From the NCBI RefSeq assembly GCF_000092225.1, contig NC_014158.1, positions 3,038,001 through 3,102,000 on the forward strand: a DNA stretch of 64,000 nt, read 5' to 3'. A model generated the notes under the pieces. The model was not told the origin of the DNA. It searched no databases and saw only the letters and a list, made by a program, of their open reading frames with translations. Source of the stretch: Tsukamurella paurometabola DSM 20162 (GTDB lineage: Bacteria; Actinomycetota; Actinomycetes; Mycobacteriales; Mycobacteriaceae). This document shows positions 21,965 through 45,851 of this stretch, piece after piece. Position 1 is the stretch's first letter. The number at the start of each line of letters is the position of its first letter. The position numbers and the translations under genes are program-made.

Positions 21965-22714
21965 TCAGATCACCAGGGTATCGAGGAGGCCATCGAGAAT
22001 GGACCGCTCACCACGCAGGTCGACGGTGTCGACCGGCAACCGGCGCCAGAGCACCAGCTCCAGATCCGATGCGGTGCCACGCAGCGTCACATCGGCCGGC
22101 GCGAGGGCGTCCTCACCACCGAGCACGTCCACGCCGTCCTTCCGCAGCCGGAGCACCCATTCGTCGCCGGTGTCGGTGGCGACGACGGCGATCGTCGCCC
22201 CGTCGAGATGGTCGCCGAGGCCCTGCTTTCCGATGATCAGGGGCATCTGCATCTGGGTCAGCTCGGTGATGCCGTCGGCGGCGACGGCCGGGTCGATCGG
22301 CTCGGCCCCGCCGGGGAGTGAGTTCTGCAGGTCCCACCGGTGCACCGATACCTCCTGCGTCATGCGACGCATCCAGAAGCGCGCCCGGGTCCGGCCGATG
22401 AAGGCACGGGCCGGCTCGTCGGGATCGTGCGCACGCAGCTCGTCGAGCAGGGCGGCGACGACGCCGGAGTACCAGTCGAGCAGCGCGGCACCATCAGGTG
22501 CATCGGAGACGTCGGGGGCGAACCGCTCCTTCGAATCCGGGCCCGCCTGCAAGAACATCGTCGCCCAGCGGTTGGCCGCACCGGTGTGGATCACCAGATC
22601 GCGGACCGTCCACCCGGGACAACTGGGTACCGGCCGGTCGAGCACCGCGGGATCGGTGGCGGCGATCCGGGCGCCATCGGCGGCGATGGAGTCGAACCAG
22701 AGGGATGTGGTCAT
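21965..22714 (-). CDS. mycothiol-dependent maleylpyruvate isomerase-like protein
   Basis: This 249-residue protein belongs to the DinB/MDMPI superfamily of thiol-dependent metalloenzymes. The metal-binding positions are visible as VRDLVIHTGAANRW and MTQEVSVHRWD (Glu and His). The N-terminal VPSCPGWTVRDL and C-terminal ADVTLRGTASDLELVLWRR are typical of actinobacterial TIGR03083-type members. The family uses mycothiol for isomerisation or transfer, but most members, including this one, have no assigned substrate. A second copy, split by an insertion element, lies at 23501-26034 on the same strand. Confidence 0.83.
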   Translation of the reverse strand: MTTSLWFDSIAADGARIAATDPAVLDRPVPSCPGWTVRDLVIHTGAANRWATMFLQAGPDSKERFAPDVSDAPDGAALLDWYSGVVAALLDELRAHDPDEPARAFIGRTRARFWMRRMTQEVSVHRWDLQNSLPGGAEPIDPAVAADGITELTQMQMPLIIGKQGLGDHLDGATIAVVATDTGDEWVLRLRKDGVDVLGGEDALAPADVTLRGTASDLELVLWRRLPVDTVDLRGERSILDGLLDTLVI

Positions 22715-23500: not shown

Positions 23501-24040
23501 CTACGTGACTTGCACGGCGTCGAGCAGCGCCTCCGCGACCGCAGTCTCGCCACGGACGTCGAGAGCCGCCAGCGGCTTCCGGCGCCACAGAGTCAGGTAC
23601 AGATCCGACGCCGAGCCCCGGAGTGCCACATCGGCCCGGGAGTGCCCGCGCGTGATCGCGAGCGAGTCGCGCGCGAGGGTGAACGTGCACTCCGCGTCGT
23701 CACGATCGGTGCCGTGCAGGTGCACGGTGCGCCCCACGAATTGGTCCGACAGCCCCGCACCTCGCGCAAGGAACCGGGGTGCGAACACCTCGGCCCACTC
23801 CCCTACACCATCGAACGCGAGCCGCGCATCGACGGGCAATGCTGCGGCAGCGGCGTTCTCACCGTCCCATCGATGCACCGCCGTCTCGTGTGCCTGCCTG
23901 CGCATCCAGAACCGCGCAGTAGTGCGCCCGGCGAACGAGCGGGCCGGCTCATCGGGTTCGTGACGACGCAGTTCGCCGACGAGACCATCGAGGCGGTCGC
24001 GGTACCACGCGGTGAGTGCGGCCCCACCGGGGGGCGGATT
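23501..24040 (-). pseudogene. maleylpyruvate isomerase-like gene, 3' part, cut by IS30 element
   Basis: This is the C-terminal two thirds of a second MDMPI-like gene. Translating the minus strand from 24040 gives PPPGGAALTAWYRDRLDG, then RRHEPDEPARSF, FWMRRQAHETAVHRWD and ADVALRGSASDLYLTLWRR, matching the paralogue at 21965-22714 point for point. The 5' part is at 25807-26034, beyond the insertion element. Joining the halves at the CTAG target leaves the frames out by one base, which a run of six C (plus-strand G at 24029-24034) would explain if five were ancestral. An internal ATG at 23905 could give a fragment without the first metal ligand, so no working enzyme is expected. Confidence 0.8.
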
Positions 24041-24044
24041 CTAG
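24041..24044. repeat. left target-site duplication of IS30-family element
   Basis: CTAG here matches CTAG at 25803-25806. Both border the inverted terminal sequences of the element. The length could be read as 3 or 4 bp. Confidence 0.65.
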
Positions 24045-24084
24045 GGATCGTCGCAACACCGAGCCTGGTAGGGCCCACCATACG

Positions 24085-24119
24085 GAAGTGCTCCGCTGAG
24101 TATTCCAGCGGAGCGCTTC
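24085..24119. terminator. strong hairpin inside the element near its left end
   Basis: A 14-bp stem with one G-T pair (GAAGTGCTCCGCTG opposite CAGCGGAGCGCTTC) encloses a 7-nt loop. It lies between the left end and the passenger promoter, so it can stop transcripts entering from the left and those leaving the transposase gene. No T-run is present. Confidence 0.55.
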
Positions 24120-24137
24120 TGGGATCCGCGGTGCTCG

Positions 24138-24167
24138 TTGCATTACGTGCACGCATTCGCATATAAT
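24138..24167 (+). promoter_or_regulatory. consensus promoter of the His-rich passenger gene
   Basis: TTGCAT (24138-24143) and a perfect TATAAT (24162-24167) are 18 bp apart. Transcription should begin at about 24174-24175, which is the ATG at 24175, so the mRNA is probably leaderless. GCAT-ATAATC-ATGC (24159-24172) overlaps the -10 and could be an operator half-site pair. Confidence 0.7.
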
Positions 24168-24174
24168 CATGCCT

Positions 24175-24333
24175 ATGACGATGACGCGCACTGAGCACCT
24201 GGCACACGACCACTCCGACCATGCCCATGGACCCGACTGCGGCCACGAGGCTATCCAGCACGGCGATCACGTGGACTACGTCCACGATGGGCACCGTCAC
24301 GCTCCGCATGGTGACCACTACGACGAGCACTGA
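24175..24333 (+). CDS. very small His-rich putative metal-binding protein (passenger)
   Basis: This 52-residue protein contains 14 histidines and one cysteine, plus many Asp and Glu, as in HGPDCGHEAIQHGDHVDYV and HDGHRHAPHGDHYDEH. The composition and the repeated H-x-H and HGDH motifs point to Zn, Ni or Cu binding; similar His-rich peptides accompany metal-transport genes in actinobacteria (from memory). The promoter position makes ATG 24175 the likely start; ATGs at 24169 and 24181 are in frame. It reads opposite to the transposase and ends 53 bp from the transposase stop. It is probably a metal buffer or resistance peptide; function not proven. Confidence 0.65.
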   Translation: MTMTRTEHLAHDHSDHAHGPDCGHEAIQHGDHVDYVHDGHRHAPHGDHYDEH

Positions 24334-24386
24334 TCCAAACGCCGCACGATGTCCTACGCTCGCGATACGAGCGCGGGGCATCGGTG

Positions 24387-25760
24387 CTAGCGAGCTGTAA
24401 TGAGGTCACGCAAACGCTCGGCTGGTGTCTTCCAGCCGAGCGTTTTGCGTGGTCGGCGATTGAGTTTCTGGGCGACGAGTTCGAGGTCTTCGCGGCCGTA
24501 GGCGCTCAGGTCGGTGCCTTTCGGGAAGTACTGGCGCAGTAGTCCATTGGTGTTCTCGTTGCTTCCGCGCTGCCAGGGTGAGTGGGGATCGCAGAAGTAG
24601 ACCGGAACCCCGGTGGCGACCGTGAATTGTTGGTGGGCGGCCATCTCGCAGCCCTGGTCCCAGGTCAGTGATCCCCGCAAATGTCCTGGGAGATTTCCGA
24701 TCAACGAAACCAGCACGTCACGGACTTCTTCGGCGGAGTGGCCGCCAGGCAGGTGGCCGAGCATGACGTAGCGGGTGGAGCGTTCGACGAGTGTGACGAT
24801 CGCGGACTCGCTGCGAGTACCGACGATCAGGTCACCTTCCCAGTGGCCTGGCACGGCTCGATCCTCGACCTCGGCGGGCCGGTCGGAGATCATCACCATC
24901 TTGTCGACGAATCGTCTGGTGCGATGTTCGGCGCGGCGGTGGGGCTTGCGGCGGGTGCGGCCCGTTCGCAAGGCCATCGCGACTTCACGGCGCAGGCCGC
25001 CCCGAGCCTGAACGTAGATCGACTGGTAGATCGTCTCGACGCTCACACGCATACTTTGCTCGTTGGGGAACTCGGTCACTAGAGAGTGACATATCTGCTC
25101 TGGGGACCACTGGTCCTGCAGTTTGTTCTCGACGTAGTCCCGCAGCGGACCGGCCTGGGCCAGTTTCGCTGGCTTCGGCCGTGACCGGCTCTTTTCCCAC
25201 CTGCGGTGCGCCTGATGCGGGCGATAGGCACCGTTGACAACGCCAGCGTCGATCTCCCGTTTGATCGTCGATGCTGGCCGGCCGAGCTCCCTGCCGATGG
25301 CCCGCAGCGATGCCCCCTCGCGGCGCATGTCAGCGATAGTTTCCCGCTCGGTCAAGGTCAGAAACCGTGGATGCAGGCTCCGCTGCCTCGGTGCATCCGA
25401 TTCCACTCCGACCCACGTGACCGCACCTGTCAGGTAATCGATCTTGCGTCCGTCGGGATGGATACGAGTATCGCCAATCTTGCGCACCCCTCGATCCCAG
25501 TCCCCAGCAGTGCGAACGCTGACACCGACACGCCGAGCAGCGTCCGGCCGCAGCACCCCCTCACGGCGAAGCCGGTCGTACTCGGCCCGGCCGGGATGAC
25601 CACCATTGCTAGTGCTCCCACGTCCACGCAGGCCCGCCCTGCGCATCCATCCAAACGCCGTATTCACTGTCACCCCCGCCGCCCTAGCAGCGACCGACAC
25701 ATTGCCGTCAGACACGTCCAATTCCTTGAAGAACCTCTTCTTCACCATCGGTGAATGCAC
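24387..25760 (-). CDS. IS30-family transposase
   Basis: This is a 457-residue DDE transposase. The N-terminal part has two HTH-like regions (AARAAGVTVNTAFGWMRRAG; RREGVLRPDAARRVGVSVRT), then the IS30 HTH LTERETIADMRREGASLRAI, and a C-terminal rve domain with catalytic residues in WEGDLIVG (Asp), LTWDQGCEM (Asp) and GSNENTNGLLRQYFPKG (Glu). It looks complete. The start is either GTG 25760 or ATG 25748. The GTG sits at the base of a 13-bp hairpin whose loop carries AAGGAG, so outside transcripts should be poorly translated. It interrupts an MDMPI-like gene on the same strand. Confidence 0.92.
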   Translation of the reverse strand: MHSPMVKKRFFKELDVSDGNVSVAARAAGVTVNTAFGWMRRAGLRGRGSTSNGGHPGRAEYDRLRREGVLRPDAARRVGVSVRTAGDWDRGVRKIGDTRIHPDGRKIDYLTGAVTWVGVESDAPRQRSLHPRFLTLTERETIADMRREGASLRAIGRELGRPASTIKREIDAGVVNGAYRPHQAHRRWEKSRSRPKPAKLAQAGPLRDYVENKLQDQWSPEQICHSLVTEFPNEQSMRVSVETIYQSIYVQARGGLRREVAMALRTGRTRRKPHRRAEHRTRRFVDKMVMISDRPAEVEDRAVPGHWEGDLIVGTRSESAIVTLVERSTRYVMLGHLPGGHSAEEVRDVLVSLIGNLPGHLRGSLTWDQGCEMAAHQQFTVATGVPVYFCDPHSPWQRGSNENTNGLLRQYFPKGTDLSAYGREDLELVAQKLNRRPRKTLGWKTPAERLRDLITAR

Positions 25761-25802
25761 GATCCCCGCAACTCCTTGCTATCCGCGGTGTTGCGGGGAT
25801 CG
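25760..25802 (-). promoter_or_regulatory. hairpin at element end covering the transposase start
   Basis: CGATCCCCGCAAC (25802-25790) pairs perfectly with GTTGCGGGGATCG (25772-25760). The 17-nt loop ends in AAGGA of the ribosome site, and the last stem base is the first base of GTG 25760. Transcripts entering from outside would fold and hide the start, a known IS safeguard. Confidence 0.6.
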
Positions 25803-25806
25803 CTAG
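25803..25806. repeat. right target-site duplication of IS30-family element
   Basis: CTAG here is the partner of CTAG at 24041-24044, directly outside the right end of the element. Confidence 0.65.
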
Positions 25807-26034
25807 AACCCACGGGGCGTCGTCGTCGGCGAAGGGCACGCGCTCCTCGGAGTCGGGTCCGGCAGCGAGGAACGCCGCGGCCCACCGGTGCACGGCGCCG
25901 AGGTGGACGATCAGGTCGCGTACGGTCCAGCCGGGGCAGCTGGGCACGCCGAGGTCGAGGCGGTCGGGCGGTGTCGCGGCCACCGCACCGCCATCCCGTT
26001 CCAGCGCATCGATCCAGTCCGTCGGCGTGATCAT
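25807..26034 (-). pseudogene. maleylpyruvate isomerase-like gene, 5' part
   Basis: This is the N-terminal 76 or so codons of the split MDMPI-like gene. From ATG 26034 it reads DWIDALERDGGAVAA, then VPSCPGWTVRDLIVHLGA with the first metal His, HRWAAAFLAAGPDSEERV and ADDDAPWV, after which the insertion element begins at the CTAG site. The match to the intact paralogue at 21965-22714 is close (VPSCPGWTVRDLVIHTGA; QAGPDSKERF). The native promoter presumably still fires leftward into the element. The remainder of the gene is at 23501-24040. Confidence 0.8.
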
Positions 26035-45390: not shown

Positions 45391-45851
45391 GAGCGCGCGG
45401 TTTCCTTGCGGTCGGTGGTGCGGTGTTCGGGGGCGGCGAAGAAGTCAGTGAGCCCGCTGCGGACGCGATCCACGTCCTCTGCGGTTCCCATGAGCTCGAA
45501 CCGGTAGAGGTAGGGGATCTTGCACTTGCGGGAGATGACGTCTCCCGCGTAGCAGAACTCTTCGCCGAAGTTGGTGTTGCCGGCCGCGATGACGGCCCGG
45601 ATCAGCGAACGGTTGTGCGCATCGTTGAGGAACCGGATCACCTGCTTGGGGACGTATCCCCCGCCGGAGACCGCCGTGGCCTGCTTCCCACCGCCGTAGG
45701 TGGGGGTGATCAGGACGAAGGGTTCGTCGACGGTGATCGGCTCGCCCGCTCGGGCCACCGGGATGCGCTTGGCGCGCAGACCCAGCTTCTTCACGAATCG
45801 GTGCGTGTTCTCCGACACCGACGAGAAGTAGACGACGAGCGGGGCCGACAT
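45387..45851 (-). CDS. nrdI: NrdI flavodoxin-like activator
   Basis: NrdI is an FMN protein that supplies the oxidant for assembling the dimanganese-tyrosyl radical in NrdF. The 154-residue protein has the flavodoxin-like opening [15 protein letters not shown] (phosphate loop), [16 protein letters not shown] and [15 protein letters not shown], all typical of the NrdI family. It overlaps nrdE by 4 nt and follows nrdH by 3 nt, so the three are made together. Its partner NrdF is encoded about 24 kb away at 20830-21834. Confidence 0.96.

Follow-up and report, generated by a model that had tools for sequence, protein, structure and literature searches.

The locus lies in a 64,000-nucleotide window of the Tsukamurella paurometabola DSM 20162 genome (NC_014158.1, positions 3,038,001 to 3,102,000), and window positions are used throughout. 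It holds an IS30-family insertion sequence of 1,782 bp (24033 to 25814) that carries a passenger gene, with limits given by the boundary common to ten copies in the genome. The terminal inverted repeats (left, 24033 to 24061, plus strand; right, 25786 to 25814, minus strand), placed by this shared boundary and a genome-wide search for end-like sites, have 26-nt arms that are 85% alike, and repeats of about 20 to 30 bp are usual in the IS30 family. Comparison of the flanks of the ten copies identifies GGG target-site duplications immediately outside the repeats, at 24030 to 24032 and 25815 to 25817; the family typically duplicates 2 to 3 bp. An earlier note made from the sequence correctly recognized inverted ends and CTAG at both sides of the element, but its limits (24045 and 25802) each fell 12 bp inside the actual end. 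The ten-copy flanks place CTAG within the inverted repeats and not outside them, which rules it out as the target duplication. A composite transposon is ruled out too, as each copy has one transposase gene and one pair of ends. The element splits an identifiable gene, as the note proposed: a minus-strand MDMPI-type (mycothiol-dependent) gene, with its C-terminal part at 23504 to 24029 (PF07398 in 23504 to 23905) and its N-terminal part at 25815 to 26034 (PF11716 in 25811 to 26034). We note that the open reading frame at 21965 to 22714 (minus strand) resembles, by eye, a paralog of the interrupted gene, so the gene loss may be covered.

Most of the element is occupied by a complete 457-aa transposase frame on the minus strand (24387 to 25760), which scores 296 bits against the IS30 equivalog NF033563 (cut-off, 80) and also matches PF00665 (rve) and PF13936. 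The DD(33)E triad, the catalytic motif of the IS30 family, is present by eye (D in HWEGDL, D in LTWDQG, and E in SNENTNG, with D-x33-E spacing). The profile match, the inverted ends, and the 3-bp duplications bear out the family assignment that was read initially. IS30-family elements prefer symmetric targets, and over 12 offsets the sites of seven relatives (L064, L068, and L069 being omitted for want of a matching duplication) give at best 56 of 91 symmetric pairs, equaled by 4 of 2,000 random pairings. For the ten sites in T. paurometabola, the lowest count over the same offsets is 72 of 2,000 random pairings (53/150 pairs), and the offset with the most pairs (72/160) is equaled by 92 of 2,000. 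Symmetry about a fixed spacer is negative for these ten sites (64/150 pairs; 1,592 of 10,000 random pairings equally good), and their reading as palindromes was rejected as not significant. Both the ten copies and the relatives have GC-rich flanks, in which GGCCCC often precedes the left end and GGGGCC follows the right end.

The genome is 4,479,724 bases long, and all ten full-length copies of the element are on the main contig (4,379,918 bases), each with the His-rich passenger gene. Nine are identical and the tenth (L010) differs by a single mismatch within the transposase gene. A search of the whole genome for end-like sequences with up to two mismatches returns 20 sites, all of them ends of the ten copies (two per copy), so the genome has no passenger-free copy and no solo end at this threshold. 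Copies whose ends exclude the His-rich gene, which the earlier note named as evidence against its proposal, thus did not appear. Target duplications are 3 bp and match in eight of the ten copies; in the other two they are reciprocally swapped. The ten copies of one 1,782-bp unit, eight with matching duplications, suggest that the element moves as a whole.

The two copies with swapped duplications (L005 at position 2,802,205 and L008 at 1,610,764 of the main contig) are in opposite orientations and 1.19 Mb apart, with CAC/ATA at one and ATA/CAC at the other. In all 15 congeners, the sequences corresponding to the left flank of L005 and the right flank of L008 are on one contig, separated by 7 to 798 bp (a single junction; the match of one flank in G010 is limited to 58 bp, and the matches in G011 are partial). 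The arrangement likely reflects a 1.19-Mb inversion by recombination between copies, or else misassembly across identical repeats.

Related elements were compared at 21 chosen loci, comprising 20 stretches from 12 genomes (among 247 with a match listed) and one plasmid. The left repeat coincides with the transposase stop codon in 19 of these; in L066 its position follows from the element length, which leaves 20 of the 21 with a resolved left end (all but L079). Ten of the 21 were measured, and nine are 1,457 to 1,471 bp long; seven of the ten have matching 3-bp duplications. The remaining one, L064 (G395:C1, 150500 to 154500), is 1,053 bp and appears to be a deletion derivative that has kept both ends and lost part of the transposase gene. 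The nearest full-length relative transposases are 66 to 73% identical to that of the T. paurometabola element, and those of L064 and L066 are 87% and 84% identical over part of the protein. Among the closest simple elements of the Mycobacteriaceae, those of G395, G363, and the Gordonia rubripertincta plasmid pGCWB2 have similar ends, 3-bp duplications, and a 73% identical transposase in the same orientation, but they are 1,462 bp long, their left repeat abuts the stop codon, and they have no passenger. The statement that simple IS30 elements carry a transposase only thus holds for the relatives with resolved ends. With relatives of about 1.46 kb and the left repeat at the stop codon, the present element has about 320 bp of additional DNA, located inside the left end, in the segment from the left repeat to the transposase stop (24062 to 24386, approximate limits). 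One simple route of capture would be use of the outer left end of a neighboring copy, followed by internal deletion.

The passenger gene (24175 to 24333, plus strand) lies in this segment and codes for a 52-aa peptide with 14 His and 1 Cys, as counted in the translation and as first described. The peptide has no match in Pfam, NCBIfam, or PHROGs, nor among PDB sequences at an E value of 0.01. Metallothioneins bind metals in Cys-rich clusters, and a metallothionein is ruled out by the single Cys in 52 residues and the lack of a Pfam or NCBIfam match. No native copy of the peptide was found elsewhere in the genome, two weak hits (E values of 0.015 and 0.39) not being counted; the former looks like a low-complexity alternative frame. 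The sole PF00950 permease of the genome ends in merely a short HDHRHAH.

The expression signals of the passenger are uneven. The TTGCAT-18-TATAAT motif described earlier is present (24138 to 24167, plus strand), with a perfect -10 (24162 to 24167) ending 7 nt before the ATG; it is weaker than first described, as the TTGCAT at 24138 to 24143, spaced by 18 nt, agrees with TTGACA at only 3 of 6 positions and a consensus scan found no promoter. The position of the -10 suggests a leaderless transcript, if it is used. Between the left end and this promoter is a strong hairpin (about 24083 to 24121, plus strand; -31.1 kcal/mol, z -6.6, with 0 of 200 shuffles equally stable). The hairpin that the note took for an insulator is therefore real, but it has no T-run. 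A second hairpin (24412 to 24446, plus strand) lies within the 3' end of the transposase gene (24405 to 24455 folds at -37.4 kcal/mol, z -8.6), and simple relatives show a similar sequence. Its 3' arm ends in TTTT, and it could possibly stop passenger transcripts, although a terminator scan reported neither hairpin.

Relatives of the peptide occur in 131 of 401 genomes of the host's taxonomic family and, within the genus, in 4 of 16 genomes, the T. paurometabola genome being included in both counts. Two Rhodococcus plasmids carry a peptide named 'zinc transporter permease', and literature searches under the PGAP name of the peptide and by title and abstract found no paper on it. The family has a conserved His-rich core (27 invariant columns in an alignment of eight sequences), and four free homologs are 73 to 84% identical to the passenger. 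The C-terminal tails of ZnuB-type permeases and the free peptides of the Rhodococcus plasmids have this same core; unlike the passenger, those examined lie outside any copy of this element. We note that the C termini of actinobacterial ZnuB-type permeases (L116, L128, L130, and others) carry a His-rich domain for which there is no model.

In the 88 peptide loci that we examined, the peptide forms the C-terminal tail of a ZnuB-type permease in 36, a tandem double in 32, and a single unit in 20; the set comprises the best 80 of 531 confirmed stretches in named genomes plus eight others (87 are distinct, as L083 and L122 are the same), so these class counts are no random sample, and the singles include L121 and L175, which are cut by contig ends, and L159, which has a frame-broken look. 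All 36 fusion loci contain a ZnuB-like permease, as do those of 2 of the 20 singles and 4 of the 32 doubles (6/52 free forms); a ZnuA-like gene is in the locus of 34 fusions, three singles, and no doubles. One of the six free loci with a ZnuB-like permease, L159, looks like a broken fusion. ArsR-type regulators, which usually respond to metal excess, show the opposite distribution, being within 1.5 kb of 23 of the 52 free forms and of none of the fusions. The zinc-import link thus runs mainly through the fusions, whereas regulators of the ArsR type are the more frequent companions of the free forms. Profile searches of 107 chosen from the 331 neighboring open reading frames (41 from fused, 36 from double, and 30 from single loci) gave 16 ABC_tran, 8 ZnuA, 8 ArsR HTH_5, and 2 ABC-3 matches; the 331 were picked mechanically, with any frame that overlaps the peptide omitted, and the neighbors therefore do not include fused permeases. 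In the fusions the tail comes after the last membrane segment, often with an Arg-rich stretch in between, which suggests that it is cytosolic. The transposase has no match in the 88 loci at an E value of 1e-10, and the peptide relatives there are therefore not copies of this element.

All five homolog comparisons give pN below pS (for instance, 0.08 versus 0.78 for L056), a sign of protein-level constraint in the family. L056 is a congener homolog, and the 50 nt upstream of the passenger resemble its upstream region (2 of 1,000 shuffles equally good) and show no clear likeness to those of four other homologs (79 to 784 of 1,000 shuffles equally good). Because both the nearest homolog and the similar upstream region are in a congener, a Tsukamurella-like donor of the passenger is probable. 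Another congener homolog, L057 (G004:C1, about 45532 to 45648), has no start codon in frame and looks like a truncated remnant.

Beyond T. paurometabola, the left end is not joined to the passenger gene in any match listed from the 401 genomes of the family, nor in any listed from 394 genomes of the host's class (two candidates being scored per genome in both searches, each of which included the T. paurometabola genome itself). Plasmid records cover at most 54% of the element and lack the passenger, and viral contigs have no exact match to the left-end pattern, in collections that may omit records near the T. paurometabola genome; phage records have no match. The spread that the earlier note envisaged is thus not seen in these matches, and the element has amplified within one genome.

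Insertion sequences with passenger genes are already described as transporter ISs (tIS; passages of PMC3129680, PMC9330008, PMC7986276, and PMC8496243). As in the tIS described in these passages, the ends of the T. paurometabola element enclose a gene unrelated to transposition, which would move with the element; the families named there are IS1, IS1595, and IS6, whereas this is an IS30 element. The closest parallels in cargo are ISPst2 (ISL3 family) and ISArsp12/ISPfr21 (IS481 family), whose passengers code for an ArsR regulator and a permease (passages of PMC6305408) and are, as here, perhaps connected to metals, but these are other IS families and carry a regulator and permease in place of a lone His-rich peptide. 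In the same passages, the element of the IS30 family has a transposase and nothing else. Passages of PMC7371123 and PMC11092175 mention no IS30-family tIS and no His-rich IS cargo, and neither was found in a literature search covering mostly nonsubscription papers; no literature was found that joins Tsukamurella, insertion sequences, and IS30.

We consider it probable that this is an IS30-family tIS that gained its passenger between the left end and the transposase gene and that the peptide binds zinc, a reading that covers the anatomy and zinc binding but not a benefit to the host. The passenger was probably captured from a Tsukamurella-like donor and then amplified in T. paurometabola, with the transposase presumably moving the whole 1,782-bp unit. 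Its own TATAAT may drive transcription of the passenger into a leaderless message, and the 52-aa peptide would be cytosolic, bind zinc with its His residues, and buffer it. Metal binding by the passenger is suggested by homology (the zinc-permease tails and the ArsR neighbors of free forms). Whether the peptide would serve at low or high zinc is read differently from the two classes, in that the fusions point to import and the ArsR neighbors of the free forms to excess.

Neutral carriage, in which a gene trapped once is carried with no effect on host or element, shares this anatomy and overlaps it in odds, and we give it a little short of an even chance. It is a serious rival, because copies so similar to one another can reveal no selection after capture; moreover, their near identity would fit a recent burst for which the transposase alone was responsible, the -35 matches poorly, and the passenger-bearing form is not found elsewhere among the matches listed. 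The intact reading frame, start, and perfect -10 speak against it, as does the protein-level constraint in the family, although these may only reflect time before capture.

Metal-resistance cargo, with the peptide protecting against excess zinc, nickel, cadmium, or copper, is the reading that the earlier note put forward and would accord with the ArsR-type regulators within 1.5 kb of 23 of the 52 free homologs, few of which are near import genes, and with the ArsR regulator and permease carried by other ISs (passages of PMC6305408). We think it unlikely, given that 36 of the 88 homologs are zinc import permease tails, none of which has an ArsR neighbor, and that the element has neither a regulator nor an efflux gene. 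More speculative still is a zinc-permease tail domain turned self-amplifying zinc buffer, in which each transposition would add a zinc-responsive leaderless copy, copy number would tune zinc handling, and zinc selection would have favored the burst. That the peptide serves the element itself, for example by making transposition depend on cellular metal levels, is very improbable: the gene is inside the ends of all ten copies, but 20 relatives with resolved ends have no room for it beside the left end, and the peptide relatives examined lie apart from this transposase.

As an IS30-family tIS with a putative zinc-binding passenger, this very small element appears to capture the transition of a simple insertion sequence into one that carries a gene, with simple relatives available for comparison. 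It also points to a His-rich domain, as yet without a model, that free mini-genes have in common with the tails of ZnuB-type permeases. Provided that the peptide is functional, the copy number of the insertion sequence would be the gene dosage for zinc handling.
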